A stretch of 43,806 nt of DNA from positions 1-43,806 of IMG/VR virus record IMGVR_UViG_3300023284_000503; one strand, given 5' to 3'. How positions within the stretch are numbered: the stretch's first letter is position 1; each line of letters begins with the position of its first letter. The notes beneath the pieces are model-generated. The model had not been told where the DNA came from. It did not search any database and saw only the letters and a list, made by a program, of their open reading frames with translations. Positions 5,310 through 28,866 of this stretch are shown here, piece by piece. The stretch is from a virus. The position numbers and the translations under genes were made by a program.

Positions 5310-5795
5310 TTAAGGTATGACTATGACCGGGCCACCGGGTACAGTCCGATCAGTTTTAATCTGATCCTTAATATCCTGTTCAGTAAATAAGGCACCGCTA
5401 GTAGAGATGACAGTCACAATAGCTGTTAATAGTTCACCGGAGCTAAAGCTACCATTGTCTATTGCTGCATCAGATCGAGTCTTCAGATCTGCCGTTATCT
5501 TTGCATCAACGGCATCTTTATCAATCGTGCTCATTTCAACCGGAACACCTGCGTCCACTTCGATATGCCTGATGGCTAGAGTCATTGGGAATCCTGCCGG
5601 CATAACGGGGTTAATTAGGACTCCAGCAATTGGAGTATTGATATCATTTGGATCTGTAATGTAAAGAGAAGTATTGGCTATTTTAATATACCTAATCGCC
5701 TGTTTAGTTATCTCATCGAAGAATAGAATAGGTGCTGCAAAAACAGATCCTGTAAATAATAATGTAACCAGTAGCGTCATCCATATACTTTTCAC
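5310..5795 (-). CDS. Exported hypothetical protein of the tail region
   Basis: 161 residues with a Sec signal peptide cleaved near residue 20 (GSVFA). The mature region has short beta-like segments, several Asp/Thr runs and a Pro/Val-rich end. No recognised family. It overlaps the LamG-like gene upstream by 4 bp, so it belongs to the fibre/lysis end of the late operon. Confidence 0.75.
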   Translation of the reverse strand: MKSIWMTLLVTLLFTGSVFAAPILFFDEITKQAIRYIKIANTSLYITDPNDINTPIAGVLINPVMPAGFPMTLAIRHIEVDAGVPVEMSTIDKDAVDAKITADLKTRSDAAIDNGSFSSGELLTAIVTVISTSGALFTEQDIKDQIKTDRTVPGGPVIVIP

Positions 5796-6559
5796 AAGGG
5801 TAATCCTCCTCCTTGAAAGACTGGTGGACCGTTTGCATTGCCAGTAGTAGTTGACGACTCAGCTGCATCATTTCCAGTACCACTCAGATCAATCTCAGTT
5901 CCACTATTGATCCACATTGGAAGAAACGTAACAAGTCCATTAGCAATAATTCCAGGATTCCAGAACACCTCGTTTACTTCCCAAGTAGCCAGTACTCTAT
6001 CGTAAGTAGATTGATAAGCCATCTGTCCATCGAACGTACCAGTTCGTGAACCATTATTACCTATCTGAATATCTGCATCTTCTGCATCTAAAGTTCCTGT
6101 AGGTGTTTGTGGTTCACTTTCTGCCAGTAATATGCCATCCACATACATATTCGCATCATTAGCGGTTGATCCATAATCATAGCCTACAGCAATATGTTGC
6201 CATACATTAAGACCAACTGAACTATTTGGAGTTACCCACTGACCAAAATCACCATTCCATCTGCGAGCATCCAGAATAAACGCATCATTAGTGCCTCCAC
6301 TTACATCAACCAGAAAAATCCTATGACCATCAAGCCCTGCATCTAATTTATTTATAACTCTCCCAAAACTATCCTCGCCCCATCCATCCTGAAATATCCA
6401 GATAACTTCTGTAAATGTATCTAGATCATTTATAGTAGAATTTTGAGTAACTGAAAGAAGACTATCCGCATTATCCCAATCACGAGATGACACAACTGCA
6501 AAAGCTGAAGAACAGAACAGAAGAGATGAGATTAGTATTGTCGAGATTAGTTTTGTCAT
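5792..6559 (-). CDS. LamG/concanavalin-like lectin domain protein with signal peptide
   Basis: 255 residues: Sec signal peptide to about residue 21 (SSAFA), then one jelly-roll domain of the LamG/pentraxin type. Visible signatures are EVIWIFQDGW early, WQHIAVGYDYG in the middle and ANMYVDGIL with DADIQIGNNG afterwards, the usual order in LamG_3-like lectins. Such domains bind glycans; in a phage tail cluster it is probably a receptor-binding or host-surface adhesin. The signal peptide is unexpected for a tail component. Confidence 0.8.
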   Translation of the reverse strand: MTKLISTILISSLLFCSSAFAVVSSRDWDNADSLLSVTQNSTINDLDTFTEVIWIFQDGWGEDSFGRVINKLDAGLDGHRIFLVDVSGGTNDAFILDARRWNGDFGQWVTPNSSVGLNVWQHIAVGYDYGSTANDANMYVDGILLAESEPQTPTGTLDAEDADIQIGNNGSRTGTFDGQMAYQSTYDRVLATWEVNEVFWNPGIIANGLVTFLPMWINSGTEIDLSGTGNDAAESSTTTGNANGPPVFQGGGLPL

Positions 6560-7953
6560 GTTCTTGGTATCCCTATTGCAATTCCTTTGGCTCTGGCATC
6601 ACCCACTAGATTATCGGTTCCCGGATTCGTAGAGTCTGCATCTCGACACACTACAGCATCCATCACTTCGCTTGCTGCCCATCCAAGATTACTCACTGTT
6701 TCAGTCCATGTAGTAAATGTAAGCTGACCAGCAGTCCCTTGAGTCGTATCAGCGGCAGCAGCCTCAGTGGTTAGTGACGCATCAGGATCAGCACCTTCTG
6801 CCACACCTCCATTATGTCGAACATCCCACAGCGCATCATTGGTTGTAGCTGCTGCTGAATACCACGGCAGAGTAAAAGTAACTGTTGCGCTGGTGTCAAT
6901 ATCCGGTGGTATAAATAAAGTAACTGTTCGACACTCATCAGTGGTGTCATTAAAGTCAACCACCAACTGATCTATATTTGTTCCAGCATCCTTAGCAATC
7001 GGTGGCACGCTATCAGCAGCTTCCAGTGGTAGTGTGGCAACGAATGGAAGCCAATAGGTTTTGACTGAATTAGTATCTGTCCCTCCAGCGTCATCCTCCC
7101 AAGTTAATGTTCCTCCACCATTTGTTGAAAGGAGTTGACCAGAAGTCCCATCAGCTAAAGGCCAACGATATTGGACATCTTCACTAGGTGTCCCGGCAAC
7201 AAACAACGTATCAAAAGTTCCACCCTCCCATGCGACTACTGATCCAGATACTGTTCCAGATGCATTCGCATTAACCATTGTGATACTGCCTGTAGTAGTA
7301 TCATCTGAATCATTCACTAAAAAAGCATCATCTACATCCGCTGTAATCGAACCTGCCCCATTAGTGATAGTAAGATTCGTCCCACCTGTAATAGCTGCAA
7401 GAACTGGATCTGCCCCTGTAGACCCTATTGGTAGTTGTCCGTTTGTTGCTTGAGCCAAAACTGTCACTGCTCCAGCTCCAGAGCCAAGCACAATTCCTCC
7501 ATCAGTAAGAGTCGATACTCCAGTTCCACCGTCTGCTACAAGAAGATCTGTAATCCCAGTAATCACACCAGAATCAATGTTTACATTGGTAGTGGCCTGA
7601 CTTGCCATATCCCAGGCTCCGGCAAGAGCCCTGGTTCCATCAGCCAAAAGATACTGAGTATGGTCATCATCTCCAAGCCCGGAAAGATCAGCTCCATGAT
7701 CTATCGTGCCATCAGCTTGAGATGTGAGCGCAACTGTACCTGTAGCATTTGGAAAGGTGATAGTCCTGGCTGCTGATGGATTCACAAGAGTTAAAGTCAG
7801 ATCATTGGCATCATCTGAGGAACCTTCCATAATGATCGTGCCACTAGTGTTGATGGTTAGATCATTATCAATGATCGTATCCTGTAACTGAGCAGCATAA
7901 GACATAGGAGCCATTGATATGGCCAACATTAAAGCCAATAAGAGTTTCTTCAT
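6556..7953 (-). CDS. Tail-fibre-like protein with signal peptide
   Basis: 465 residues with a Sec signal peptide cleaved near residue 20 (PMSYA). The rest is Thr/Gly/Asp/Ala-rich beta sequence typical of trimeric fibres, including a fibre-type stretch AARTITFPNATGTVAL and a module of about 50 residues (about 238-288, containing WEGGTFDTLFVAGTP). That module recurs twice in the product of 9336-10709. Probably a host-recognition fibre. It is followed by the LamG protein with a 4-bp overlap. Confidence 0.75.
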   Translation of the reverse strand: MKKLLLALMLAISMAPMSYAAQLQDTIIDNDLTINTSGTIIMEGSSDDANDLTLTLVNPSAARTITFPNATGTVALTSQADGTIDHGADLSGLGDDDHTQYLLADGTRALAGAWDMASQATTNVNIDSGVITGITDLLVADGGTGVSTLTDGGIVLGSGAGAVTVLAQATNGQLPIGSTGADPVLAAITGGTNLTITNGAGSITADVDDAFLVNDSDDTTTGSITMVNANASGTVSGSVVAWEGGTFDTLFVAGTPSEDVQYRWPLADGTSGQLLSTNGGGTLTWEDDAGGTDTNSVKTYWLPFVATLPLEAADSVPPIAKDAGTNIDQLVVDFNDTTDECRTVTLFIPPDIDTSATVTFTLPWYSAAATTNDALWDVRHNGGVAEGADPDASLTTEAAAADTTQGTAGQLTFTTWTETVSNLGWAASEVMDAVVCRDADSTNPGTDNLVGDARAKGIAIGIPRT

Positions 7954-7954
7954 G

Positions 7955-8065: not shown

Positions 8066-8078
8066 TACTTACTCCTCT

Positions 8079-9176
8079 CTAATTAATTTTGTGTGCTTCA
8101 AGAAAAGTATTTTCTATGGTAACACCTGCCTCAAAGTCTAAATTACCACCACTATTCTGAAATCCAGTAGCAGTAATAATATCATTAACCTCAAGTTCAC
8201 CTGCCCAATTACATACTCCCTGTGATCTTACATCCGCCATTACTCTACAAGTAGCAACATCAGAACCATTTTTCCTTATTGTGAGAACCCTAGTACCACT
8301 ACCATTACCTTCCCACTCTGTCACGAATAATGCTGAATACTTACCCGCTGTATTAATCGTGATTCTCTCATTATTAGTGACATTGTCGTGCATTGAATCA
8401 GTATCGTACAATTCGCTGTCCCAAGTGATAACAGTACCAGTGTTATTAGATATACTCTGACTTGCTGATTTTGTTACTTTGGCTGAGATGTCTCTAATCT
8501 GATCAAACACAGCGTTCTTAGTAGCGGCTTCAAGCAGCCCATCCCAAGATGAATCGAAGACATCATCAACTAGAGTAATCTGACCGTTAACTTCTAGAAG
8601 CGTAGCAGGAGTTTCTGTACCTATACCTAGTAATCCATCAGCGGTTAACCGCATTCGTTCTACTGTATTGGCTAAATCTCCATCATCAGATGGATTGTTT
8701 TTCCATGCCATAAAGTCATCAAATAAATGGATGAATGATAATGGAGCTGGAGAGTATTGAAGTAATGATGAAGAATTTGGCCCATATCCTCCAGTCTTAT
8801 TCCATGTAGTCGATGCTATATCAAGAGTAACACTACGAAAAATTGGTGTTGCTGGAAAAAGTACTTCGTCTATTTCTCCTCCAGCATCATTATAAATCGC
8901 TATAGATGCGGTTGCATTGCTTCCAGAATTTAAATTAATAATTCTTGTTCTTGATGTGTTGTTTACATCATCACTATGAATAACTGTCCATTCATCAGAC
9001 AAATGAGGATTTTTATCTCCTGCACCACCTAACGTAATAGCTCCAGCCTTATCAATATCGAAGAAAGTATGGAACACTAAAATAAAAGAAATAATAAAAA
9101 CAATAGTAAACGCAATAGCTGCTAAGAAACTATATCTAATTATTCTAAATAGAATACTGCTATCTATTTTTTCCAT
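8079..9176 (-). CDS. Membrane-anchored tail-fibre-like protein with C1q/TNF-like end
   Basis: 365 residues. The N-terminus carries a long hydrophobic span (about 15-38) without a cleavage motif, so it is an anchor and not a classic signal peptide. The middle has the fibre/chaperone-type phrase RLTADGLLGIGTETPA. The last 120 residues (ITINTAGKYSALF, then VLTIRKNGS and GELEVNDIITA) look like a C1q/TNF-type jelly roll used by trimeric phage fibres. An N-terminally membrane-tethered fibre is unusual. Confidence 0.7.
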   Translation of the reverse strand: MEKIDSSILFRIIRYSFLAAIAFTIVFIISFILVFHTFFDIDKAGAITLGGAGDKNPHLSDEWTVIHSDDVNNTSRTRIINLNSGSNATASIAIYNDAGGEIDEVLFPATPIFRSVTLDIASTTWNKTGGYGPNSSSLLQYSPAPLSFIHLFDDFMAWKNNPSDDGDLANTVERMRLTADGLLGIGTETPATLLEVNGQITLVDDVFDSSWDGLLEAATKNAVFDQIRDISAKVTKSASQSISNNTGTVITWDSELYDTDSMHDNVTNNERITINTAGKYSALFVTEWEGNGSGTRVLTIRKNGSDVATCRVMADVRSQGVCNWAGELEVNDIITATGFQNSGGNLDFEAGVTIENTFLEAHKIN

Positions 9177-9335: not shown

Positions 9336-10709
9336 CTAGTTCAAGTCAGCCCTATTATTCTCTAACCATTCTGATTCACCAGAATCCCACATCATACCTA
9401 TGTTATCGTTATTACCTATAACAAATGAAACTCCACCAGCTAAAGCAAGGCCAGTTCCATCATCTAATGTAACTGTGTTAGCATCACTTACTCCCTGAAG
9501 AACGACGATCTGACCATCACTTGTTCCAGCTACTATTTGCGGATCAGCTGTAATATCTATTGCACCGCCATCACCTTGAATTCGCATTAAGGCGTTAGTC
9601 ACTGTAATGCCACCTGCAGCTGTAATACTGGTATCTGCTGAAGGTGTATAGATTAACCTATTGCTAACTACAGTATCACCAGTCCCAGAGGAGCCAGTTT
9701 GTTCTATGAACTCACCTGTAGTAAGAGTATCCCCGGTAACTTGAAGCTTCTGAGTGTTTGGTTCTGCATCTGCTCCAATACTGACATTATCGCCTGATGT
9801 AGTAAGCCTGACTGTAGAACCATCATCTGTCCATCCAGATCCTGCACCATCAGCTGCCCAGGTTAAGGTGCCTCCTCCATCTGTCTGCAGCTGTTGACCA
9901 CTAGTACCGTCTGCAAGAGGCCACCTATATTGAACGTCTTCACTGGGAGTTCCAGCTATGAACAACGTGTCGAAAGCTCCCCCTTCAAAAGCGACAACAG
10001 ATCCAGTCACAGTATCTGAAGAAACATCCCAATCTCCTCCTACAAGAACATTCCCATCTCCATAGGTAAGAGTTGTGTCTGTTCCTGAGACATCAAAGGT
10101 ATGCACATTTGTAGCATTCCCACCAGCCCCCCAGGTAGTTGCTTCTACCTCTGTGGAATCGAAATCAACAGTAAAGGTAGAATTAGCTCCAGCATCAGTT
10201 AGGTCTATCGCAATTCCAGCCGTAAGTACTCTCTCTTGTGTCAGTGATCCATCATTAGAAAGAGTCACATATTCAGCATCTACAGGTGCGCCGCCTCCAG
10301 CACCGTCATCAGCTTCCCAAGTAAGCGTCCCACCAGCATTCGTATGTAAAACTTGTCCTGCTGTCCCATCAGATAAGGGCCATACATATTGAACATCTTC
10401 AGTAGGTGTTCCTGCAACAAACAATGTGTCAAAAGTCCCGCCCTCCCAGGCAACAGTTGTAGCTGTCAAAACACCGGTGGAAACAACATCTCCAACAGTC
10501 GCAAGTGAAAAGGTTCCATCTACGTTATCTGTAAGACTCCCATCGGAAACTTTAAGTATCTTGGATACAGTAGCTGGTGTTCCATCTTCCTCCTGAATCT
10601 TCCAAACCTTATCTCTTCCTTGAATTGGAGAACTGGTAAATCCATAGACAGATTGAATACTGCTCGTAAGGAATATGGATATAATTGCTAAAGATATGAA
10701 CTTTCTCAT
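9336..10709 (-). CDS. Tail-fibre-like protein with signal peptide and duplicated module
   Basis: 457 residues; Sec leader cleaved near residue 23 (SVYG). It contains two copies of the approximately 50-residue module also found in the product of 6556-7953 (about residues 85-137 and 233-285), each with an EGGxFDTLFxAGTP core followed by GGTLTW. The remainder is Thr/Asp/Gly-rich beta sequence. Probably a structural fibre or a fibre-associated adhesin. Confidence 0.75.
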   Translation of the reverse strand: MRKFISLAIISIFLTSSIQSVYGFTSSPIQGRDKVWKIQEEDGTPATVSKILKVSDGSLTDNVDGTFSLATVGDVVSTGVLTATTVAWEGGTFDTLFVAGTPTEDVQYVWPLSDGTAGQVLHTNAGGTLTWEADDGAGGGAPVDAEYVTLSNDGSLTQERVLTAGIAIDLTDAGANSTFTVDFDSTEVEATTWGAGGNATNVHTFDVSGTDTTLTYGDGNVLVGGDWDVSSDTVTGSVVAFEGGAFDTLFIAGTPSEDVQYRWPLADGTSGQQLQTDGGGTLTWAADGAGSGWTDDGSTVRLTTSGDNVSIGADAEPNTQKLQVTGDTLTTGEFIEQTGSSGTGDTVVSNRLIYTPSADTSITAAGGITVTNALMRIQGDGGAIDITADPQIVAGTSDGQIVVLQGVSDANTVTLDDGTGLALAGGVSFVIGNNDNIGMMWDSGESEWLENNRADLN

Positions 10710-12505
10710 AAAACAGGCCGCTCTCTCTTCTTGGATAACCCCAAAACATTGGCAGTTTCTCTGACTGCCGTAGCTTTACCTACTGGCGTTGAAAGAGGTC
10801 CAGTAATAGGTCTGCCAGCTGCTTTAAGAATAGCTCCTGCAGCTCCTGCAGCTCCACCTGTTCTCTTAATAGAAGGCCCAGAAATTACCATAGGTAACTG
10901 ACCAGAAGTTAATGGAAGTGGGATAGGAGCATTCAATCTATCTGATAATGCCTGATTAGCTGCTTTAAGATTTCTGTCTGCTATCTCAATCTCATCTGTT
11001 GATCTTAAACTGTCATCAATAAAAGTAACACCAGAATCAACTTCAACTCTTCTAAGAAAATCAAGCTCATTGGGAGTCTTTCCAGACAAACCTTTCATCG
11101 TTCGCCCTAATCTATCCGTAACTTCAACATCCTTAAATGCCTTAAATGATCTAATAGCATCATTCAATGGATTGATTTGTTCGGCATACTCCCTATTAAG
11201 AATTCTTAAATCCTCTGTACCAATAGCATCTTGAAGAACTGTACCTATATCATTCATTACCTGACCCAGAAATCTATCTTCTGCATTGGCTCCAGATACT
11301 CGACTTGTGAAGGATGACTTCTGTAATTTCCGAAGAGACTTAACAACATCATTAAGTTGCTCCGGTAGAAAATCTCTTGATATCTGCTCCACGGTTTCCT
11401 CTACAGCTTTTGAAGGAACAAGAACCTCACCAAAAGATCCCAAGATAGGAGGCTTAACTTGACTAGGAGTAGTCAAAGTCTCTGAAAGATTGCTAAATAT
11501 CCTGAATACTTCTTTCTCACCTTTAGTCGCTTTTGCTAGTCTATCTTTAACTAAAGCTCCAGTATCATCAAGAATCCCAACCTCTTCTAATCTTCCACCA
11601 AGACTATTAATAAGATCATCACCAGGAATTGGTCCTTCAACACCAGCAAATATTTCTTCTAATCTGGTCCCATAATCTCTGAAAATTTCTTTCCGTCTAC
11701 TCCTCAATCCTTGTTTTACTGCAGGAACCTTTTTATGAATAAAGGTATCAAAATTATTCTGTCTCTTAATTACTTCTGTCTGAGCCTTTGTCACACCATC
11801 TTTCAACTCTCCGAAAACAGCCTTAGATATACCCTTTTTAACTACAGTAAATGGAATTCTTGCAACTCCAGTGACAAGATCAACAGTCTTAGCAATCGCA
11901 TTCACAGGAAGTTCTGAAGTCGCTCTTAGCCCCTTAGATAAAATACGGATAGCTTTTGGAAGATTCTTTGCTTGTCCCGGCCCCAATAAGGCACCAAACC
12001 CAAGAGCTCTAGAAGCAATCTCTCCAAATCCAGCCGCTCTCGGCACATCCCCTATCTGAGCCGGTCTTTCCCCTCTCAACGTAGCCCCAATGTCCTCTGA
12101 GATACCTCCAATATCCCCACGCTGAGCCCCTAGCAGGACATCAGCGGTCACCCCTTCTCCTATCTCAAATCCAGCCCCAAGTCCCTGAACAGTAAGACCC
12201 ATAGCCTTTACAGCAGCTCCAGCCGGATCTTCTCTGAGAGGAGCCAGAATCCCACGACCTCCAAATTCTTCCTGAGCTTCACCCAACCCCTCTTTTAGTC
12301 CACCAACAAAAGATTCTCTCCCTGCAATACCTCTCTCTGCTTCAAGACGTAAAGCTTCAAGTTTTTGACTAGGACGTAATTGTTCGCCAGCAGGCAAAAC
12401 TGCTGTAGGTTCAATGGCTGGTTCTTCAGCTTCTAAACCAATTAATTGATCTATTGGGATAAGATTAGACTTCTTAATCAATTCATCAATAGGTATAACA
12501 GCCAC
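10706..12505 (-). CDS. Large internal virion (DNA-ejection-type) protein
   Basis: 599 residues, rich in Ala/Gly/Arg/Glu, with repeated amphipathic helices and a central Ala/Gly hydrophobic part (about 100-215). It is third of three consecutive genes (13651-14562, 12505-13647, 10706-12505) in the slot occupied by ejection proteins gp7, gp20 and gp16 in P22-like phages or gp14-16 in T7. No lysozyme motif is seen, so peptidoglycan cutting during entry is not evident. Confidence 0.65.
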   Translation of the reverse strand: MAVIPIDELIKKSNLIPIDQLIGLEAEEPAIEPTAVLPAGEQLRPSQKLEALRLEAERGIAGRESFVGGLKEGLGEAQEEFGGRGILAPLREDPAGAAVKAMGLTVQGLGAGFEIGEGVTADVLLGAQRGDIGGISEDIGATLRGERPAQIGDVPRAAGFGEIASRALGFGALLGPGQAKNLPKAIRILSKGLRATSELPVNAIAKTVDLVTGVARIPFTVVKKGISKAVFGELKDGVTKAQTEVIKRQNNFDTFIHKKVPAVKQGLRSRRKEIFRDYGTRLEEIFAGVEGPIPGDDLINSLGGRLEEVGILDDTGALVKDRLAKATKGEKEVFRIFSNLSETLTTPSQVKPPILGSFGEVLVPSKAVEETVEQISRDFLPEQLNDVVKSLRKLQKSSFTSRVSGANAEDRFLGQVMNDIGTVLQDAIGTEDLRILNREYAEQINPLNDAIRSFKAFKDVEVTDRLGRTMKGLSGKTPNELDFLRRVEVDSGVTFIDDSLRSTDEIEIADRNLKAANQALSDRLNAPIPLPLTSGQLPMVISGPSIKRTGGAAGAAGAILKAAGRPITGPLSTPVGKATAVRETANVLGLSKKRERPVL

Positions 12506-13647
12506 TAGACTTCATTCCCTTGAGCATCAACGAAAATACCTTGATCTTCATCAAATCCAACAGCTCCTCTACCTTTAGCATCAGAAGCCTCTTGAGCAGT
12601 AGGAGTGCTGTCTTCAGTTACTTCTGGACCTAATAATGAATCAATCTGTTCTGCTGTAAATGTTTGCCCCTCCTTCTCGAAACCCTCTTCTGTAACTGCA
12701 AATCCTAAAGATTCAGCACCATCTAAACGCCTCTTAACTCTTCTCACAAAACTTTGTAATTCACGCAAAGCCTCAAAATTAATCTCACCAGTTCTTCTAA
12801 GTGAAGGTAATCTACGTTGAATAAATTCAATCTCAGTCCTTGTTAATTGCTTTCCACCTTTAGATGTAACAAATTCATTTTCAATAATATCTAATGCAAG
12901 AGTTATCCTCTGTGCTAAAGGATCATCTTTAAAAGTCATTTCTTTAGCAAATCTAACACCTTTACCTGCTAACGGTATTCTCCCAAAAGTAGAAGCCTCA
13001 ACAGCTTTCTTAAAACTAATATTTTCTGGATCATTCCCTGTTAATTCAAAAATTCTACTAATAGCCTTATCTACTTCAGCTGCAGATTCTGAAATTAGAA
13101 CCTTTGTAGGAAGCTCACCCTTACCAGCCACCTTTGCTTTCTCTTTTGCGAATGTCTCTTCTGCGCCAGCCTGGGTCTTTCTAGCTTGTTCTTGTTTTCG
13201 CTCTTCTTCAGTAGGCAAAATCTTACCCTTAATAGTAGTTCCAGTGAACCTATTCTTCTGAGTAATATCGGTAGGCCTCACCTCTCTACCATCAGCAAGA
13301 GGTTGACCTGTGCCACCCACTAACGGAGCTGCGCCTTCGACTATTCCACCACCAGCAAGCATTCTTGGAAATTGAGCGGGAGCACCAGTAGTTGGTTGTG
13401 CCCCAGCAGCAGGTCCATCTTCATCCAGCCCAAGAACTTCTCTACCTTTTGGAGTGACAACCCCTAAACTAGCAAATACCTTCTCCAGCCCAGAGGCAAG
13501 CTCCTGTTCTTCCTGCCGCTTCAGAGCCTCTTGTTCTTCACGTTTCTTAGATCCTTCTCTCACAGAATCAATTAAAGCAGAAAAAGGATCTCCACCTTCT
13601 CGTCCTAACCGAATACCTTCTCTTAAAGACTGTCCACCGTTAGCCAT
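12505..13647 (-). CDS. Internal virion (ejection-type) protein
   Basis: 380 residues, highly charged and helical (SVREGSKKREEQEALKRQEE near residue 30), with Gly/Pro-rich linkers. Shares its last base with the start of the next gene. Assignment is by composition and position in a three-gene ejection-protein block. Confidence 0.6.
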   Translation of the reverse strand: MANGGQSLREGIRLGREGGDPFSALIDSVREGSKKREEQEALKRQEEQELASGLEKVFASLGVVTPKGREVLGLDEDGPAAGAQPTTGAPAQFPRMLAGGGIVEGAAPLVGGTGQPLADGREVRPTDITQKNRFTGTTIKGKILPTEEERKQEQARKTQAGAEETFAKEKAKVAGKGELPTKVLISESAAEVDKAISRIFELTGNDPENISFKKAVEASTFGRIPLAGKGVRFAKEMTFKDDPLAQRITLALDIIENEFVTSKGGKQLTRTEIEFIQRRLPSLRRTGEINFEALRELQSFVRRVKRRLDGAESLGFAVTEEGFEKEGQTFTAEQIDSLLGPEVTEDSTPTAQEASDAKGRGAVGFDEDQGIFVDAQGNEV

Positions 13648-16185: not shown

Positions 16186-16479
16186 CTAAATCCGCTGCCA
16201 TGTCGTCGAACCATCAGTATTTACCCAAAATTCAAACGTGCCACTATTATTGTAGAAAACTGGTCTGCCAATTAGGCCTTTCCTTGAACCATTTGGGGCT
16301 GTAGTCGTAACTGGAAAAATCTGCCAATTATCGTATATCTCATCAAAATACTGTTGTGCTTCTAACAAAAAATCTTCCATAGGCGGTGGAGAGGATATCT
16401 CATCTGCTAAAGCATGAGTCGCAAAGAAAAGACAACCTATAATCAGATATTGTCTGATCGCTCTAAAAACATTGCCCAT
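16186..16479 (-). CDS. Small exported protein
   Basis: 97 residues; signal peptide ends near residue 25 (THALA). The mature part is short, acidic, and ends with strands (PVFYNNSGTFEFWVNTDGSTTW) that resemble the last strands of a small beta domain. Its start overlaps the preceding hub gene by 37 bp. Function unknown. Confidence 0.65.
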   Translation of the reverse strand: MGNVFRAIRQYLIIGCLFFATHALADEISSPPPMEDFLLEAQQYFDEIYDNWQIFPVTTTAPNGSRKGLIGRPVFYNNSGTFEFWVNTDGSTTWQRI

Positions 16480-19903: not shown

Positions 19904-20540
19904 GAGCCGCCTCCAATTCTTCTTTAGCCTGATACTTCGCAAGCTCTAAATCTAAATCTCTCTCTTTCTTTTCTAATTCACCAATCTTAGTCATCCATTG
20001 TTCCTCAAGAACTTTAAGTCTATCATTCAACACTTTGTTATTTTCATTCATTACATGCCCTGTCTTACTTAAGGCCTTGTTATCCTCGTACATAATCTTT
20101 GCTTCATCCATCAATCTATTAGCACGTTTCTCTACCTCAACAGAATCAGAAATCCTCTTATTTGCATCACAGATCTTATCATCCATAACTCCTAATCTGT
20201 TCTCGTTTTGTTCTAAAGTTTTTTCTCTCTCCCTTAACTTCAATTCCTGAGTATTTAAGGTTCTCTCTCTAGACTGAAGGGCAATTGCTCGTTTATTAAC
20301 TTCTTCTTTTATCTGATGTTCATCCATCTTATCTTGAACTTTATTCTGACCCTGCATTTGCCTTAATCTTGATTCAGCATCCAACATCTGCATATCTAAA
20401 TTATCTTTACGAGCAGCTAGTTGCTGAATGTCAGCTTCTAATCTTGTCTTTACTTCATTCAGTAAATCTACTTTCTCTTTACCGGAAGAAGTTTTCACTC
20501 CAGGTGGACGACCTCTTTTCTTAAAACTAGATTCTTTCAT
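19896..20540 (-). CDS. AT-hook plus coiled-coil protein
   Basis: 214 residues. Near the N-terminus KKRGRPPG (about residues 7-14) is a textbook AT-hook, a minor-groove DNA-binding motif. The remainder is a long coiled coil (about 25-205). It may bind phage or host DNA, for example as a nucleoid or scaffold-like factor. Its 3' end carries the ribosome-binding site of the next coiled-coil gene. Confidence 0.7.
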   Translation of the reverse strand: MKESSFKKRGRPPGVKTSSGKEKVDLLNEVKTRLEADIQQLAARKDNLDMQMLDAESRLRQMQGQNKVQDKMDEHQIKEEVNKRAIALQSRERTLNTQELKLREREKTLEQNENRLGVMDDKICDANKRISDSVEVEKRANRLMDEAKIMYEDNKALSKTGHVMNENNKVLNDRLKVLEEQWMTKIGELEKKERDLDLELAKYQAKEELEAAHV

Positions 20541-21648
20541 AAGTGTACGCCTCCAGAAAAGCGATTGTGATAATCGCTATAATTGACAATCCTGCTATCC
20601 GGCAAGGAAATCCAAACATCATATTGACAGAAAACGCTGTCAAACTTGCCAGATAAGCATAAACTAGATTTGATCCTTCGCATCTAATAACTCTCCACAG
20701 CAAATCCTTGAAATACAAAAACATAAGTACCAATAAAACCAATCCGCCTTCAAACCAAAACTGCAGATAATCATTGTGCGCTGCATGAGTTCTGCTGGAC
20801 GATATAGAAGCTGACCAATCGTGCATTGAGAATGAACCTAATCCAAACCCAAATATGGCCGCCTGCTTAATATTCGTTAATATTTCACCCCATAAAGCCC
20901 AACGTAAAGGATCAAACCACTGAATACTATGAACTGGAGATCGCCACCAAACTACAAAGGCAACTAACCCAATTACTGATAGCGCATATTTCCATTGCTT
21001 CTTCAGTAGGAAGAACATAACAAGAGCAGCAATCAATGCCAGACTCGCTCCAAGTGAGGAACACATAATAACAATGAATATTACAAGGGCAAGACCTAAT
21101 TTGTAATGCTTTTGAGGAAACACAAGGAAAAATGGTGCAACTATGGACATGAACTCTGCAGTCAGAAATGAATTGCCAAATGTAGTAAAAATCCGGTTTG
21201 TGTGCATCAATCGGTATGTCATATTGTCAAAACCGAATACCTGCAGCAATCCATATCCAGCAACCAAAGAACCAACCAGGCATATCCATCTGGTCAATGA
21301 CAGCCATTCATCACTTGATATAGTGCATCTGACTAAAGAGACAACCAACAAGATGGCCAATAGAACATTCAAACTTGGCATCAATGTCCAGAACTGGATG
21401 ATTGAACCTTCTGACATGAAACTTGCTAGGAAATACCAGGAGAATAGAGCCGTTATATAGACGCCAATAGCTGCTAAGTAACGATTCTTAAACTCTAGTC
21501 CATTTCTTCCTACCAAAGCCCATAAGACAATCATCCAACCTAGTGCAATAAACACTAGTTCCTTAGGCTTCCAGAAAGCATCTTTTTCAAAGAACGGCCA
21601 GAAGAATAATACACATAACGCTAGATGGGCTTTAACTAAATTCCACAT
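20527..21648 (-). CDS. O-antigen polymerase/ligase-like membrane protein (Wzy/WaaL type)
   Basis: 373 residues with about ten to eleven hydrophobic spans. The large extracytoplasmic loop (about 245-300) carries the signature arrangement of the Wzy_C/WaaL superfamily: RWALWGEILTN, then FGFGLGSFSMHDW and HAAHNDYLQFWFEGG, with the conserved Arg, Gly and His-Asn positions. Such enzymes polymerise O-antigen repeats or ligate glycans to lipid A-core. In a phage this suggests changing the host surface after infection. Its location inside the capsid/tail operon, sharing 14 bp with a coiled-coil gene, is unusual. Confidence 0.8.
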   Translation of the reverse strand: MWNLVKAHLALCVLFFWPFFEKDAFWKPKELVFIALGWMIVLWALVGRNGLEFKNRYLAAIGVYITALFSWYFLASFMSEGSIIQFWTLMPSLNVLLAILLVVSLVRCTISSDEWLSLTRWICLVGSLVAGYGLLQVFGFDNMTYRLMHTNRIFTTFGNSFLTAEFMSIVAPFFLVFPQKHYKLGLALVIFIVIMCSSLGASLALIAALVMFFLLKKQWKYALSVIGLVAFVVWWRSPVHSIQWFDPLRWALWGEILTNIKQAAIFGFGLGSFSMHDWSASISSSRTHAAHNDYLQFWFEGGLVLLVLMFLYFKDLLWRVIRCEGSNLVYAYLASLTAFSVNMMFGFPCRIAGLSIIAIITIAFLEAYTYERI

Positions 21649-21721: not shown

Positions 21722-22225
21722 TTAGTCTCCGTTTGTCGGATTAATCCATGTCCACAACAAGGCAAAATCAAGGCCCTTGCCATTGTGTGCTTCCAACGAA
21801 ACGCCTAAGTTTGTACCTGTACCTAACTGACCAGCTACAGTAGAAGTCCCAACAGCTTCACCAGCATTAGTAATCGCACTAGTTACACCAGCATATTGAA
21901 CCTGAGCCGGGCCTCTGGTTATAATCCGCATTGGAAATCCATTAGCTGTACTGTCATCTTGCACAACCCCTGCAGCCATAATACTATTAGCAGAAGTCGT
22001 CGTAGTGACATGAATCCCCAACGTAGATCCCGCAGTAGCGGTTGTATCCCAAATCACAACAGCGCCGCTCGAAAGCGTAGCTCCTGAATTGTTCACAACG
22101 ACTGCTGTTTCTTGGAGCATTTTGTAGCGAGTACCGTCTCCGGCAGCGCCACCCCAAGCGAAGGCTAAAGCAGGAAGCGACAATACCATAGCCGTCGCAA
22201 GTAGAAATCTTCTCATTACTCTCAT
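21722..22225 (-). CDS. Capsid-associated (decoration-like) protein with signal peptide
   Basis: 167 residues. Residues 1-23 are a typical Sec leader (LPALAFA). The mature part (AVVVNNSGATLSSGAVVIWD, GVVQDDSTANGFPMRI, GPAQVQYAG) has the beta-strand pattern of small capsid-decoration or head-stabilising proteins that usually follow the capsid gene. It lies 16 bp after the major capsid gene. A secreted decoration protein would be unprecedented as far as I know; an alternative is a periplasmic protein recruited from the same fold. Confidence 0.65.
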   Translation of the reverse strand: MRVMRRFLLATAMVLSLPALAFAWGGAAGDGTRYKMLQETAVVVNNSGATLSSGAVVIWDTTATAGSTLGIHVTTTTSANSIMAAGVVQDDSTANGFPMRIITRGPAQVQYAGVTSAITNAGEAVGTSTVAGQLGTGTNLGVSLEAHNGKGLDFALLWTWINPTNGD

Positions 22226-22241: not shown

Positions 22242-23258
22242 CTAATTAGTGTCTCCATTTAGAAGAACACCGCCATAACGCAGACCTGTATCTATTTGCT
22301 GTCCAGCCCAATAAATCCAGACTGCCAATGAATCTTGATCGGTAGGCATCACGAACTCACCAATCTCAGCATCTCGTCCTCTTCTAACTAGCAAACGATG
22401 ATACTTGGCAAGATTTAAAACGTATGCTCTATTCGCAGGACAACCATCATCATCAAACATGACAGAATTCTTCCAACGAATATTAGGAAACCCAGCATCA
22501 AGCATAGCTCTATCTGCTTCTCCAATATCCATAGGCATACCTATCCGGATACTTGTGGTCGCATCTGCTACATTCGTCAGATTCTTCTCAAAATTATCCA
22601 AGAAAGAACCTGTCGTAACAATCGTATCAGGAGCAGTATCGAAGAACCGAGCCTGCCGATAGATTGTTCTCAGACGATCCATCCCATTTAAAGAGAAATT
22701 ATTGGAAATATCTGCGACTTGATGTCTCCAACTGGTTTGAGTAGCACGATTCACATTTCCAACGGTTCCAGTAGTATTGCTACTAGTGAAAAACGTCTGA
22801 AGCCCAGTAATCTTATCTACATCGGCATCTCCTCCATTCGAGAAAATTCCGATAGCTGATCCACCAATTCCATCTCGCATGCTAACTTCACCTGCTTCGA
22901 GGAAATTGTTTAGGATATTTTCAACCCCTGCATCTCCAGTCTTGACCATATCAAGACCAGAAACTAATACAGGCACCCTGATTTGAGTCCAATCATATAC
23001 AAGTGACGTATATGGATCAGGTCTAACAGGAGCAGAAGTATCTAAATCGGTATATCCTTCTGCAACTGGAAGCTCTTTCAGGATGTTAAAACGTAAATGG
23101 GGCGCTCCATCAACAGTCAGGATTGCTCCCATATCACGCATACGGAAAAGCGTCGCAGTCCTGCTGGATACGTTATCCCACAGAATAGGTTGCGCCTCAT
23201 CACGCATAATCGTAAATATACGACCGTATGTGCGTGTTAAAGATGTATTATTCGGCAT
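22242..23258 (-). CDS. Major capsid protein
   Basis: 338 residues without a signal peptide. Order of genes (portal, scaffold, then this) and its sequence features (QPILWDNVSSRTATLFRM, APVRPDPYTSLVYDW, DTIVTTGSFLDNF, VMPTDQDSLAVWIYWAGQ) are typical of an HK97-fold major capsid protein of a P22-like or related podovirus. It should be the most abundant virion protein. Family assignment is by context and general pattern. Confidence 0.8.
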   Translation of the reverse strand: MPNNTSLTRTYGRIFTIMRDEAQPILWDNVSSRTATLFRMRDMGAILTVDGAPHLRFNILKELPVAEGYTDLDTSAPVRPDPYTSLVYDWTQIRVPVLVSGLDMVKTGDAGVENILNNFLEAGEVSMRDGIGGSAIGIFSNGGDADVDKITGLQTFFTSSNTTGTVGNVNRATQTSWRHQVADISNNFSLNGMDRLRTIYRQARFFDTAPDTIVTTGSFLDNFEKNLTNVADATTSIRIGMPMDIGEADRAMLDAGFPNIRWKNSVMFDDDGCPANRAYVLNLAKYHRLLVRRGRDAEIGEFVMPTDQDSLAVWIYWAGQQIDTGLRYGGVLLNGDTN

Positions 23259-23299: not shown

Positions 23300-24160
23300 T
23301 CAGGGTTGAACACCTTGCCCCCTGGCAATTTCCATAACCCGACGACTAACACTTGCTGGTGTAACACGTCCCTGTTTATCTCTTTCATAATCAGGCAATG
23401 CTACACTAGATTTAAACTCGGGTTCTGAACTTCTAGCTCTTCGTTCAGTTTCTTTCTGTTCAATCACTTGGCTTTGTTTATTTGAAGCATCACGAACCTC
23501 TTTAAAAGAGCTAACATTAACTAAAACCTCTTCAGGATTAGCATTCGGATACTTCTCAGCCATCACTCGATACTTTTCTTGATATTGATCTATCAAGTCT
23601 TTGCCGACTTCGACTCTCAGTTTCGACAAATCACCTTCAATCTTGGAAGTCAAAGACATCGTTCCCAAAGATTCCAGATCAGCAGTCTTAACCTCTAACC
23701 CGTCAATCTTCTTCTGAAGAGAATCAAGTGCATCACTTACCGTTGAATTCTCTTCCCTAAGAATACTTTTCAGATTAGTAAGACCTTCTCTTGTCTCAGC
23801 ATCAGTCGCTGAAGCAATCAAACGATCCAGAAGTTTATCTTTCGCAGCATCAGTTGGCTTTGCATCTACTTGCTTAATCTGCTTCAGCAACTCTTCTTGC
23901 TTCTTCAAATTCTCTTCAGATCTAGTCAACTCTTGCTCACGACTTTTAACCGATTGACGATCTTTATCAGCAGCACTTTGGAAATTCTTCTTCGACTCCA
24001 CTAAATACTTGATTTGTCTCTCGCGTTCATCCGCTGGAAGACTCCTAAGATATTCCTTAGTCTCTTCAGGAATGTCAGCAATCATTGGATCAAGTTTTAA
24101 ATCCTCAGCCTTTCCGCTCTCCCCTTCGGGCCTCGCGGATCTCTTCGGATCTTCTGGCAT
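23300..24160 (-). CDS. Scaffolding protein
   Basis: 286 residues, highly charged and helical (about residues 45-130 and 150-240), with a low-complexity acidic N-terminus and a basic C-terminal end. Position directly before the major capsid gene and after the portal marks it as the internal scaffold for procapsid assembly. GGAG precedes the ATG. Confidence 0.75.
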   Translation of the reverse strand: MPEDPKRSARPEGESGKAEDLKLDPMIADIPEETKEYLRSLPADERERQIKYLVESKKNFQSAADKDRQSVKSREQELTRSEENLKKQEELLKQIKQVDAKPTDAAKDKLLDRLIASATDAETREGLTNLKSILREENSTVSDALDSLQKKIDGLEVKTADLESLGTMSLTSKIEGDLSKLRVEVGKDLIDQYQEKYRVMAEKYPNANPEEVLVNVSSFKEVRDASNKQSQVIEQKETERRARSSEPEFKSSVALPDYERDKQGRVTPASVSRRVMEIARGQGVQP

Positions 24161-24341: not shown

Positions 24342-24740
24342 TTAGTCTCCTAGTGTTTTGAAGGCATCCATTAAGCCTTCTTTTTGTATTCTCTGTGCCG
24401 TTCTCTCGGCACATTTCTTCCGCTTCTGAGCGAACTCTTGATCTCGGTGTCTTTTTGATCGACCAACACCACTGACTTCGTTCTTCGACGGATGAACTCT
24501 ATTGTTATTCACTAAAAATTTGTCGTAACCTTTTTTAGATCGAATCTCAACTAATCTTCCGTGATTGTCTACACGTTCAAATTCAAATGCTTTATCTTTA
24601 TGAGTATAAGGTAACGTGTCTGGAGCATATGATCTCTCCCAAAGTTCTTCACAACACTCTGAAAGATGAACATCATTCATTCTTTGAAACTCTATCCAGG
24701 CATTACCACACTTATAACACTTATATTGATATATTGGCAT
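24342..24740 (-). CDS. FmdB-type zinc-ribbon protein
   Basis: 132 residues. The start, MPIYQYKCYKCG, is the hallmark of the FmdB regulatory-type zinc ribbon; the second pair of metal ligands is the altered SECCEE at about residues 27-32. The C-terminal half is basic (RSKRHRDQEFAQKRKK). Such genes are common between portal and scaffold in podovirus-like clusters but have no defined role. Its ATG overlaps the portal stop. Confidence 0.75.
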   Translation of the reverse strand: MPIYQYKCYKCGNAWIEFQRMNDVHLSECCEELWERSYAPDTLPYTHKDKAFEFERVDNHGRLVEIRSKKGYDKFLVNNNRVHPSKNEVSGVGRSKRHRDQEFAQKRKKCAERTAQRIQKEGLMDAFKTLGD

Positions 24741-26743
24741 TAACGTCTACTTGTGTTTACTCCCAACCCACGCTGGTTAGGAGCTACCGATCCAACTAAA
24801 TCAGCAAAACCAGTGACACCTTCTCTTTGTTGACTGGATTGAGGAATTCTAGTATCTCCTTGCTGAGGAGAAGCAAGAGGTTGTTTTCGTTCTCTAAAGA
24901 CTCCATGCTGTGCAATATGTTCATCTTCCTCTGCAGTTGGCCCTTCCTGTTTAGAAGCTTCTGAATGAACTGCAATATGAATATCATGATTCTCATTCGG
25001 ACTCACTACTTGAGGAATACCCTGAGCCATTAATCGAGACTCTTCTGTGGCTGCAGCAATTTCTTCCTCATCATCACCGATTAAAGTTAGATCAATATCT
25101 TTGAAATCGTACTTCTTAAGCCACTGCTGCAGTAAAGGAAGCTCCTTAAATCGATTAGGGAACTGGGTCTTCAAGATTGTTACGAAATTCTCCCATTGTT
25201 TCCTATCAACCGCCTCATCCTTCGGAGGTCGCATAGACCCCGCCTCTAACTCATATTTGATCTCTTCTTGGGCTATTCTGTATGCTTCCGGAGTTGGATC
25301 ACCATTTCCGTCTACTGGGAAGGTCGGCCACATCTCTTCCGATACTTCTTCTCCCAAAATCTCTGCAATCTTCTCTCTTGGCGTAAATTGCCATCTCAAA
25401 ACTGCTATCCCACGCATAACATTCTTAATCCACTCTTCGTTTACATCTTGTCTCTCACCAACACGAAGTCTTTCTCCAGCCTGCAAATTCTCACTCTCAG
25501 TCGCCGTATCAATACCTTGCGATTGCTGAAGAAGTTGTTGAAATCCACTAATCCTCATCAAATCTTGTAATATCTGAGGTCTTAATCTGTACCAATCACC
25601 CGGCATAGAAGGTGTCTGAAAAGTCTTGATTGCAGTCTCTGAAATATTTGGTAGTTCAACAAGATCTATATCACTAGCTTTAGCAATATTCGCTTTCTGA
25701 GAATCAGTAAGTTCCCCTTCTCTAGTAAGAATCATCGCTGCAGCCCGTCTACCATGCCGAATCATAGCCGATGAAAACTCAGATAATTGCCTTAACTGTG
25801 GCATCATAGCCTGGACATCACTCATCGGATAAGAGTTGGCATTATCTTTCATCTCTGGAACAGGATTAAGTATTAGTGGATGATGTGAAAACCCTTCATT
25901 TACCCAGTTCCAATCCATCTCAAACAAAGTATCGGATGAAAATCCTTCCACAAGAGTAAATCTCTCTCGATTACGTCGATCCCACACATGGTGTAACATC
26001 TTTTTAACTGTTTCCGGATCTTGTGTAGGACCTCCTCTTCCTCCTGCAGAAGCTAATTGCACATTATCCTTAAATTTAAACAGTTTTGTCCTCTGCCCCG
26101 GTACTCCAACCCCTGTCTCTTGAAGCATATTCTTTACTTTATTCTTGTAAGCTGGATTTCTGAGCAAATCTTCCAATGTAACAGGCTCTTGCTCAATCAA
26201 ATAAGGCGCTTCTCTTTGATTATTGTAACCATCCGGCCATAACATACGCCAACTTGGTACATTCGAGAAAAAAACGCGCTCATTGCGTCTCGTTTCATCC
26301 AAAATACCTAATTGAGACTCTAATTTGCCATTCAATTTCCCCTGAGGCGCTAATCGAGTAAATCCAATCTTTCCCCAACCTGGTGGCTGCAAAATAGAGT
26401 CTAAAAGAGTCGTTTTAGCCTTATCTTTGATCTGTAAATCTCTTACGTCATACTCTAAAACTCGCTCTAAAGTTTCTACAAATGGTTGATATTTAGAAGT
26501 ATTCGTTCTAACAAATATCTTCGGATGTCGCGCATAGTAAGCAGCAATGGAAACCTTCACAAACTCGAAAAGGAAATTAACCTCCTCCATGTCACGGGCT
26601 CTATCTGTAGCATTCCCAAAAAATGTGCCAGTAAACATCTGAATAGCAGAAGTTCGAAGTTCTTTTGACTTATCTTCTTGCAGATCTTTGGCTCTTTGAA
26701 TCCGACCCACCCAAATTCTGATCTCTTCCGGACTCTTAGGCAT
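24740..26743 (-). CDS. Portal protein
   Basis: 667 residues, the size of P22-type portals (about 700). It follows the large terminase gene with an 8-bp overlap and precedes the FmdB and scaffold genes. Expected portal features include a helix-rich centre (about 330-420) and a Gln/Pro-rich disordered C-terminus. It forms the dodecameric DNA channel on which the adaptor docks. Confidence 0.8.
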   Translation of the reverse strand: MPKSPEEIRIWVGRIQRAKDLQEDKSKELRTSAIQMFTGTFFGNATDRARDMEEVNFLFEFVKVSIAAYYARHPKIFVRTNTSKYQPFVETLERVLEYDVRDLQIKDKAKTTLLDSILQPPGWGKIGFTRLAPQGKLNGKLESQLGILDETRRNERVFFSNVPSWRMLWPDGYNNQREAPYLIEQEPVTLEDLLRNPAYKNKVKNMLQETGVGVPGQRTKLFKFKDNVQLASAGGRGGPTQDPETVKKMLHHVWDRRNRERFTLVEGFSSDTLFEMDWNWVNEGFSHHPLILNPVPEMKDNANSYPMSDVQAMMPQLRQLSEFSSAMIRHGRRAAAMILTREGELTDSQKANIAKASDIDLVELPNISETAIKTFQTPSMPGDWYRLRPQILQDLMRISGFQQLLQQSQGIDTATESENLQAGERLRVGERQDVNEEWIKNVMRGIAVLRWQFTPREKIAEILGEEVSEEMWPTFPVDGNGDPTPEAYRIAQEEIKYELEAGSMRPPKDEAVDRKQWENFVTILKTQFPNRFKELPLLQQWLKKYDFKDIDLTLIGDDEEEIAAATEESRLMAQGIPQVVSPNENHDIHIAVHSEASKQEGPTAEEDEHIAQHGVFRERKQPLASPQQGDTRIPQSSQQREGVTGFADLVGSVAPNQRGLGVNTSRR

Positions 26744-28496
26744 ACTGCACTACCGCCCTTCTTAAATCTCTGCTATTCATCACTTTTTGTGCACGATGTC
26801 TCTCACTCAACTCAACATATTCGCCCATTGTCATATCAGTTTTCTGAATCTGCTTTACTTCTTTACCCGGCATCAAATCAACTCGATCAACGAATGTCAT
26901 TGCATCTAAAATGTCATCATGCTCGCAATGAGGAAACTGTAGGGCTTCCGCTTCCATATCCTCAGTAAAATCATATTGTCTTCCATCAAATACCCTATTC
27001 TCAATCACTGTTCCCTTATCCGGCCATAACCAACGACCTTCTTCATACTGCGGAATCAATGAGAATATTCTGTCATTCTTAGCAACCTGATGAGACTTAA
27101 TCTCATGGATCGTAAATACCAAATGCTCTTTTCTTCGTTGCTCTTCAAGATAAAAACAATCCGTTGTCTGAAATCCAATCGCTTCCCAAAGAATATCTCT
27201 GATCCCAAATTCCTTGATCAATCCAATCGCTCTCTGAATTCGCTGAGTAGGTGACAACTTATCTCTGATTCCATACCTAAGAAATCTCTTGTCATCACAT
27301 AATCCAATAACCTCCATCACTGTATAGTCAGATCTTTTCTTGCGCTCAGAAGCCGGATCAACCACAAGAATATTCTTTGTGCCTACAGGAATCTTGCCCC
27401 AATAAAGAATGAACTCTTTCTTAAATCTTGCTTTCTCTGGATCTTCTGGTTTTAGAAGATGCTGACAACTAAAAGTCCAACCACTTGTATTAGCTTTAAT
27501 CTCTTTGATGTCTTCTCTACTAAATCGACAAGCTACAGTGGGATTTCCTTCAGAATCTTCAAGAGGAATCTCTATCAACTTTATTCTTGGATTTCCCTTA
27601 AGTTTTGAGTAGAGATCAGAGAAATGATAACGAGTACCTTCATAATCTTGAATAGGCATGTGCGGATCATCAAATAAACCTACATTGAAACGATCATCCC
27701 AATCTCCAGTTTTCTTGATTTGATCTTCTGTATTAATTGAGTCTTCGGTTACAAGATCGTTCTTCTTTGCGATCTGCCAGTGTTTCCCGGTTATCTCAGT
27801 ACCTATGCCAACAGCTTCTAATGTATCTTCACTTCTGCCGCCATCAGTTCTATTATCTACAGAGAAACCTGAGCGATTACCCCAATCCTTTGTATCAGGT
27901 ATCAATTCAGGAAACCAAGTTTTAAGAGGATCACTTCTTAGAAGATTTTTTATACTCTCAAGATTATCAGAAGAAGTTTCCTGACCGTTATGAGCTAATA
28001 CAGTATGAATGTTAGGGAAATTTATGATTAATTGAATTGTGTGAAGTTTGGTAATAATGGAACTCTTCCATAAAGTTCTAAAACCAAGATACAATCGTTG
28101 AATCTTCTGCATCTCATCTTTTGTCCAACCATTATCTTCATAGATCTCACCGGGAAGTAACATTTCTGTTACAGGAAAATTATTACCTTGATTAGAGTCA
28201 ACACTTGGCACCATAAGATTGTGATACAGAAGCTTTTGGTTCATTAGCTGAACTTCATCACAAAAAGGTTCGTAGAATTCTTGATAGCGAGCAATTCGAG
28301 AGAAACTTTCGCCTAATTGACCTGCTAACCAAAATAAATCGTTCCTAGCTCTCCAACGGTTCTTTAATCTAATCCAGTAATGAAGATGGCGTTGCTGGCG
28401 CGCTAACATGGCACAATTCTTGAAATTCTCAAGTCTGGCTCTTATACGCTCTCGCATATAGCTATTATCAAACTGGACTAGCTCTTGAACTGTCAA
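26736..28496 (-). CDS. Terminase large subunit
   Basis: 586 residues; TTG start at 28496 supported by GGAGG 4 bp upstream. A variant Walker A lies in LGFRTLWKSSII (about 140-150). The usual Walker B acidic pair appears as NDLV (about residue 251). The RNase H-like nuclease motifs are complete: VVDPAS (about 383), an acidic WEAIG (about 440) and HDDILDAM (about 535). It packages DNA with the small subunit and the portal. The Asn in place of the first Walker B Asp is noteworthy. Confidence 0.88.
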   Translation of the reverse strand: MTVQELVQFDNSYMRERIRARLENFKNCAMLARQQRHLHYWIRLKNRWRARNDLFWLAGQLGESFSRIARYQEFYEPFCDEVQLMNQKLLYHNLMVPSVDSNQGNNFPVTEMLLPGEIYEDNGWTKDEMQKIQRLYLGFRTLWKSSIITKLHTIQLIINFPNIHTVLAHNGQETSSDNLESIKNLLRSDPLKTWFPELIPDTKDWGNRSGFSVDNRTDGGRSEDTLEAVGIGTEITGKHWQIAKKNDLVTEDSINTEDQIKKTGDWDDRFNVGLFDDPHMPIQDYEGTRYHFSDLYSKLKGNPRIKLIEIPLEDSEGNPTVACRFSREDIKEIKANTSGWTFSCQHLLKPEDPEKARFKKEFILYWGKIPVGTKNILVVDPASERKKRSDYTVMEVIGLCDDKRFLRYGIRDKLSPTQRIQRAIGLIKEFGIRDILWEAIGFQTTDCFYLEEQRRKEHLVFTIHEIKSHQVAKNDRIFSLIPQYEEGRWLWPDKGTVIENRVFDGRQYDFTEDMEAEALQFPHCEHDDILDAMTFVDRVDLMPGKEVKQIQKTDMTMGEYVELSERHRAQKVMNSRDLRRAVVQYA

Positions 28497-28530
28497 TCTA
28501 CCTCCGGCGGCCTAGGCGGCTTAGTAGGTT

Positions 28531-28866
28531 TCATTGCAAGTAAACCAGAACTTCGCAGTCTGTCAGCGTAGTAGCCCATAACCCAGTTGCGAATAGACCT
28601 TTGCCAGGGAATGTCACCCCAAAGGGAGCCTGCAGGTTATCCTGAGTCTTGAACACCACATCACCCGCACTCGCATCATTCAGCTCAACAACCCAGGTCG
28701 CAGCAGTCGGATTTACCACAATGGCCGTAATCGTCAGACTGTCAGTGATGGAACTCGTTGCCCCCGTTGTATCTAAGAAAATTGGGTCCACAGTCAGATC
28801 ATTCACTGCCCATGCAGGCGAAACCATCAATAACCCTAAAATCGCACTTAAGAGAAACCTCTTCAT
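28531..28866 (-). CDS. Exported small protein upstream of terminase
   Basis: 111 residues with a Sec signal peptide ending SPAWA (residue 20). The mature part is all-beta in pattern (SLTITAIVVNPTAATWVVEL, AGDVVFKTQDN), about 90 residues, like a small decoration or Ig-like domain. It overlaps the upstream gene by 4 bp. Role unknown. Confidence 0.7.
   Translation of the reverse strand: MKRFLLSAILGLLMVSPAWAVNDLTVDPIFLDTTGATSSITDSLTITAIVVNPTAATWVVELNDASAGDVVFKTQDNLQAPFGVTFPGKGLFATGLWATTLTDCEVLVYLQ

Follow-up and report, generated by a model that had tools for sequence, protein, structure and literature searches.

A short-tailed phage lineage with Sec leaders on its predicted outer virion proteins and a possible assembly route in two compartments

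The IMG/VR virus record IMGVR_UViG_3300023284_000503, analyzed here over its whole length of 43,806 bases (the window), carries a 144-base exact direct repeat (positions 1–144 equal 43663–43806), which indicates a circular and complete genome. Its virion and lysis genes form one minus-strand operon that extends from approximately 28.9 kb down to 4.0 kb, and the genes for the terminase large subunit (TerL), portal, scaffold, capsid, adaptor, nozzle, fibre, and internal proteins follow the order of the module of HMO-2011 and Mx8-like phages (Table 1). Judged by this module, the window phage is an Mx8/HMO-2011-like short-tailed phage. In every other member of the module that we checked, the virion genes lack export signals, whereas nine genes in the module of the window encode predicted Sec leaders. 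By its gene order and homologies the phage is thus of common ancestry with the HMO-2011/Mx8-like module, yet not an ordinary member of it.

A sequence-only reading of the window had listed nine proteins of this operon with Sec signal peptides, one of them resembling the tail hub and one encoded behind the capsid gene, and had noted that terminase, portal, scaffold, and capsid lack such leaders. We called leaders with a conservative home-made rule (n-region, hydrophobic core, and AxA-like site). All nine open reading frames (ORFs) lie where that reading had placed them, and nine of nine N-termini were Sec/signal-peptidase-I leaders according to the rule. Each combines an n-region containing K or R, a hydrophobic core free of charged residues, and an AxA-like site; examples are 28531–28866 (MKRFLLSAILGLLMVSPAWA^VN), 14942–16174 (MNKFIYSLVAVLMFSTPVFA^NP), and 21722–22225 (MRVMRRFLLATAMVLSLPALAFA), the last being the gene that follows the capsid gene. 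The hub-like protein (16443–18035) could be identified as a nozzle, because its profile matched the nozzles of HMO-2011, MaAM05, and CRP-2 (E = 2.9e-37) with the match beginning directly past the leader. Its cleavage site was placed at GGA^SL by our script and at AEA^NI by the family alignment. TerL, portal, scaffold, and capsid were leader-negative, as that reading had stated, and so were the adaptor and the three internal proteins.

On a stretch of the E. coli K-12 genome, the rule recovered four of six proteins known to be exported; of about 31 other genes it miscalled two, both for membrane proteins. Among the non-gene ORFs of the window it gave weak matches in 5 of 61 (score ≤6.21), and a single weak match therefore means little. 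Outside the virion set, leader-like N-termini occurred at 3330–3947, 4044–4325, 5008–5292, and 34049–34480. The virion protein at 8079–9176 begins with a longer hydrophobic segment, which comes closer to an anchor than to a cleavable leader.

The same pattern, which the sequence-only reading had suggested seeking in related metagenomic phages, was indeed present there. Besides the window, 13 related contigs contained the same operon, with two different capsid proteins among them. Single-sequence scans with the nozzle and the terminase found nothing, and the relatives surfaced through alignment searches. Clade 1 (the window, G001–G006, G398, and the partial G399 and G400) has a common capsid, and clade 2 (L064, L066, L070, and L071) has a capsid that differs in sequence from that of clade 1. 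Across the family, leaders were found in 71 of 73 genes for the decoration, nozzle, 97-aa, and fibre proteins versus none of 125 genes for packaging, portal, scaffold, capsid, adaptor, and internal proteins. The respective numbers were 53/54 exterior-class versus 0/95 other genes in clade 1 (Fisher p = 6e-40, a value inflated by the relatedness of the genomes and by the assignment of some fibre-like ORFs to the exterior class on account of their position); for clade 2 they were 18/19 versus 0/30. The two exterior genes missed by the rule are leader-like by eye. For the clade 1 classes that were set independently of the leader, all decoration-position (10/10), nozzle (8/8), and first-fibre (8/8) genes were positive. 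Conservation across the family is evidence for the leaders beyond chance.

Applied to other phages, the rule gave no leader for any of 87 virion genes from five phages whose modules are homologous, nor for any of 13 genes of T7. In lambda only Lom, an outer-membrane protein, was positive, and in crAss001 only one protein annotated as lysis-related. A study of hypervariable phage proteins has taken the absence of signal peptides as support for a phage origin (PMC6199706). The calls in the window could be a prediction artefact, or reflect hydrophobic virion segments without any export function, as they depend on a home-made rule with the false positives described above. However, this explanation is hard to reconcile with a partition that holds over two capsid types and with n-, h-, and c-region features that are kept while the sequence diverges, and we consider it highly improbable.

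The relation of the leaders to the proteins behind them could be examined in the nozzle and the first fibre. The nozzle profile also matched Mx8-type nozzles (E = 2.6e-7), and the mature N-terminus of the first fibre aligned with the first residues of the leaderless fibres of HMO-2011 and MaAM05. As the end of the leader roughly coincides with the start of the leaderless homologues in both proteins, the leaders of nozzle and first fibre are, according to these alignments, additions ahead of complete and ancestrally cytoplasmic proteins. In 11 aligned nozzles the leader sequence diverges freely, and what is kept is its charge, its hydrophobicity, and a junction of small residues ahead of a conserved tryptophan. 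Leader-bearing forms might nevertheless serve another purpose, such as receptor or superinfection blocking, while virions are built from leaderless forms that arise through internal starts or inefficient export. Some decoration and fibre genes do have in-frame starts near the cleavage site. In contrast, the nozzle genes of L002, L003, L011, and L071 contain no in-frame ATG, GTG, or TTG in codons 15–40, so that their leaders must be translated and leaderless products from these genes are unlikely. A Shine-Dalgarno-like motif precedes an internal start in only four of the 28 genes tested. This start-codon scan led us to reject leaderless products from internal starts for the most part, and export of a nozzle and a decoration protein would make little sense for receptor blocking. 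Inefficient export is conceivable; taken as a whole, this alternative appears quite improbable.

The sequence-only reading had left three possibilities side by side: addition of the proteins in the periplasm or during lysis, uncleaved anchors, and membrane-coupled assembly. We find export with cleavage best supported and very probable, since most hydrophobic cores lead into an AxA site and the residues behind it correspond to the full N-terminus of homologues that lack a leader. The two other possibilities are less favored. In a membrane-coupled assembly, uncleaved or late-cleaved anchors would hold nozzle, fibres, and decoration protein at the inner membrane, where the heads would dock, and the WaaL-fold protein described below would be part of the assembly site. 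The anchor-length segment of the fibre at 8079–9176 and the constant presence of a polytopic membrane protein in the operon are consistent with such a site, but the cleavage sites and homologue N-termini are not what anchors would predict, and anchoring would still leave periplasm-facing proteins on the wrong membrane side. We therefore regard membrane-coupled assembly as unlikely.

The leaders are accompanied by a gene for a member of the O-antigen-ligase superfamily (20527–21648). It lies between the decoration and adaptor genes, overlaps its same-strand neighbor 19896–20540 inside the virion operon, and occupies the same place in the members read. Its product scored 32.2 bits against Pfam Wzy_C (PF04932; cut-off 31.7), and an AlphaFold model (mean predicted local distance difference test score, pLDDT, 78.6) had only one convincing Foldseek match in the PDB, the WaaL structure 7tpg (E = 2.1e-4, probability 1.00), whose fold is alike (template modeling score 0.60) at 16% sequence identity. 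A Wzy_C gene was present in all 15 records that cover the site, namely six of six members, the relative from a metagenome-assembled genome (MAG), two further records out of three (the remaining one stops short of the site), and all six clade 2 records, three of which are near-identical copies of one phage. All six clade 2 records scored over the Pfam cut-off and G002 below it. No Wzy_C gene was found in the four leaderless capsid relatives, nor any over the cut-off in seven other phages. Wzy_C divergence tracks nozzle divergence (Mantel rho = 0.73, p = 0.0004, 11 phages), which argues against repeated capture of the gene.

These features suggest that the Wzy_C protein may glycosylate exported virion parts, which we put forward as a tentative proposal only. 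Alternatively, the gene may be a lysogenic-conversion or exclusion gene that alters the host surface polysaccharide and is unrelated to the leaders. This second possibility deserves serious attention, although we do not favor it; it concerns the glycosylation step only and is compatible with exported virion parts. O-antigen polymerases and ligases are frequent among Wzy_C proteins. The known phage examples, Wzy-beta of D3 and VG_p25 of VarioGold, are read as surface-modifying (PMC9658991). VG_p25 has about ten transmembrane helices; its gene belongs to a separate moron-like cluster that runs opposite to the late genes, and activity during lysogeny has been proposed for it (PMC9658991). The window gene shares the Wzy_C domain with both but is instead located within the virion operon, always together with leaders, and its divergence follows that of the nozzle. 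A search of the protein against NCBIfam for PglL-type protein O-oligosaccharyltransferases gave no match.

Taken together, we propose an assembly of the particles in two compartments, which as a whole we consider somewhat more credible than not. Packaging proteins, portal, shell, adaptor, and ejection proteins would not leave the cytoplasm, where they would give rise to filled heads. The nozzle, the small protein encoded next to it, the fibres, and probably also the head decoration protein would reach the periplasm via the host Sec system, lose their leaders there, and be held behind the outer membrane. The lipoprotein gene (4044–4325) and the outer-membrane-barrel-like gene point to a host with an outer membrane and a periplasm, which would retain the exported parts. 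The phage WaaL-fold transferase, situated in the inner membrane and facing the periplasm, may add a host lipid-linked sugar to some of these parts. Finally, holin-type lysis proteins would open the inner membrane, and both sets would join shortly before release; that joining takes place at or after inner-membrane failure is a step toward which we lean. The most elaborate form of the proposal, a lineage with cytoplasmic filled heads and an exported, matured outer layer that is glycosylated by a WaaL-fold protein glycosyltransferase and added at inner-membrane failure, is conceivable but doubtful. Oxidative folding is an unlikely reason for export, as six of ten exported proteins contain no cysteine past residue 25.

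Several observations weigh against this proposal. In P22 and T7 the nozzle normally helps to close the head, and filled heads would need another plug until the nozzle arrives at lysis. The two leaderless coiled-coil proteins encoded beside the Wzy_C gene are purely speculative candidates for such a plug. The decoration role of the 21722–22225 product is putative and derives from its position. This protein showed no homology to Mx8 p49 or to its positional counterparts in Mx8-type phages, and its AlphaFold model (pLDDT 40.8) was unusable. Furthermore, the ligase-motif histidine of the Wzy_C protein is present in the window copy (AHNDYLQ) and conserved in 8 of 13 aligned members but lost in five relatives, all from clade 1, so that transferase activity may not be general; the acidic residue two positions further on is kept in 13 of 13. 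Lastly, small beta-rich proteins of about 110 aa (b108/b110), which never have a leader, adjoin fibre or adaptor genes in relatives and would be an exception to the partition if they are located on the particle surface.

The HMO-2011 group and the Roseobacter CRP phages, which are short-tailed and marine, resemble the window phage in nozzle profile, capsid-adaptor-nozzle-fibre order, and first-fibre N-terminus, whereas HMO-2011 has leaders in 0 of 20 virion genes, no Wzy_C gene, and a capsid annotated as P22 coat-like. Mx8, BUCT555, ppBjS10J-1, and ctMlz233 share module order and the major capsid (25–28% identity, tblastn), and the window capsid is distantly related to that of Mx9 too (tblastn). 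Unlike the window, these four have leaders in 0 of 67 genes, lack Wzy_C, and encode an unrelated protein at the decoration position. Filamentous phages of the M13 type have virion proteins with Sec leaders and assemble at the inner membrane, without a head or packaging motor. The window differs from them by its tailed-phage module with TerL, a phrog_9953 capsid, and leaderless shell, portal, and internal proteins, and a secretory assembly of the filamentous type, with a secreted coat and neither head nor terminase, was rejected on the basis of TerL and the leaderless capsid.

Table 1 Predicted products of the window. Portal, scaffold, adaptor, internal proteins, and decoration gene were assigned mainly by position rather than by family match.
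Position	Strand	Predicted product	Basis
28531..28866	-	111-aa protein, Sec leader (AWA^VN), upstream of terminase	leader rule
26736..28496	-	terminase large subunit, no leader	phrog_38, E 2.9e-48
24740..26743	-	portal, no leader	position after TerL, as ctMlz233 portal; 41-46% conserved in relatives
24342..24740	-	small zinc-ribbon protein, no leader	Zn_ribbon_8, E 1.6e-6, below cut-off
23300..24160	-	scaffold, no leader	encoded between portal and capsid, like Mx8 p47
22242..23258	-	major capsid protein, no leader	phrog_9953 major head protein, E 3.6e-28; tblastn to Mx8, Mx9, BUCT555 capsids
21722..22225	-	putative head decoration protein, Sec leader	leader; role from position only
20527..21648	-	Wzy_C/WaaL-fold polytopic membrane protein (O-antigen-ligase superfamily)	PF04932; structure match
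19896..20540	-	coiled-coil protein 1, no leader, family-conserved	sequence; leaders 0/8
19424..19942	-	coiled-coil protein 2, no leader	sequence; leaders 0/7
18032..19144	-	head-to-tail adaptor (tail-tubular-A position), no leader	position; phrog tail matches; aligned in 7 clade 1 phages
16443..18035	-	tail nozzle/hub, Sec leader	phrog_3287/5107; profile matches
16186..16479	-	97-aa protein, Sec leader (ALA^DE)	leader; conserved in family
14942..16174	-	first tail fibre, Sec leader (VFA^NP)	mature N-terminus aligns with HMO-2011 and MaAM05 fibres
14544..14945	-	protein at GNAT acetyltransferase position, no leader	GNAT in relative L002; BUCT555/ctMlz233 annotation
13651..14562	-	internal (ejection-type) protein 1, no leader	position and conservation
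12505..13647	-	internal protein 2, no leader	position
10706..12505	-	internal protein 3, no leader	position
9336..10709	-	fibre-like protein, Sec leader (VYG^FT)	leader; weak phrog_36485
8079..9176	-	fibre/virion protein, long N-terminal hydrophobic segment (anchor-like)	phrog_13989 virion structural, E 2.9e-14; maximum 19-residue Kyte-Doolittle (KD) value 2.97
6556..7953	-	fibre-like protein, Sec leader (SYA^AQ)	leader; phrog_34856, weak tail-fibre match
5792..6559	-	laminin-G/lectin-like protein, Sec leader (AFA^VV)	PF13385, E 3.7e-10, over cut-off; phrog_31148
5310..5795	-	161-aa protein, Sec leader (VFA^AP)	leader; no family
5008..5292	-	94-aa protein, N-terminal hydrophobic segment and coiled coil, inner-spanin-like	sequence only
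4044..4325	-	small lipoprotein (ITSC lipobox), outer-spanin-like	sequence; lipobox rule
3330..3947	+	leader-bearing protein, outer-membrane beta-barrel domain match just below Pfam cut-off	
34049..34480		RlpA-like lytic transglycosylase (DPBB_1), hydrophobic N-terminus, outside late operon	

Some of the remaining genes could be compared with their counterparts in other phages. Family searches gave no match for the 28531–28866 product, the scaffold, and the three internal proteins, and a Pfam search gave none for the window copy of the 14544–14945 product. In relatives, a different exported Cys-rich protein adjoins TerL in place of the 28531–28866 product; Cys-rich exported proteins or lipoproteins are encoded between terminase and portal in L002 (5655–5936), L003 (5580–5924), L011 (324–698), L012 (588–977), L037 (9529–9897), and L040 (2511–2882). 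The zinc-ribbon protein has a counterpart at the equal position in ctMlz233 and BUCT555, and the 97-aa protein gene adjoins the nozzle or first-fibre gene in relatives. Two distal fibres, compared with phage genomes by tblastn, had no matches or only short ones. The 3330–3947 product may alter the host surface, and the 34049–34480 product is a possible exported endolysin. The small beta-rich proteins are encoded at L008 17936–18247, L017 17406–17729, L055 14657–14983, L052 6010–6336, and L064 7666–7998. Homing-endonuclease-like ORFs were observed in or beside the capsid gene of L003 (10771–11541), L017 (4267–5028), and L066 (4049–4594).

The named relatives have hosts in Myxococcus (Mx8), Stenotrophomonas (BUCT555), Bradyrhizobium (ppBjS10J-1), and Puniceispirillum (HMO-2011). 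The 274-kb record of Microcystis phage MaAM05 (MW495066.1; L013) carries lepA, proS, ftsH, and kimA near its virion genes and looks less like the genome of a phage than like bacterial chromosome that contains a prophage. The relative L017 is located on a contig assigned to a Planctomycetota MAG, and the GC contents are similar, which offers a weak link to a Planctomycetota host. Only two others of 392 Planctomycetota genomes had distant nozzle matches (L034 and L033), both in nozzle ORFs without a leader, and the trait is thus not phylum-wide. No usable cas1 was found in the L017 Planctomycetota MAG.

Assembly of tailed phages is taught as a cytoplasmic process. The sequence-only reading knew of no tailed phage with such a pattern, and none emerged from our limited search of the open-access literature, with most subscription journals and preprints outside its scope. 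Completion of the particle outside the cytoplasm, as suggested here, would to our knowledge be without precedent among tailed viruses. Beyond that reading, our data show a pattern that is lineage-wide, spans two capsid types, is strictly partitioned by the expected place in the particle, and is always accompanied by a WaaL-fold protein. The combination of leaders and Wzy_C in a virion operon provides a simple marker for further such viruses in metagenomes. If the outer parts are exported, final steps of phage assembly can cross a membrane, and periplasmic maturation, perhaps including glycosylation, would be a new step for phage biology.

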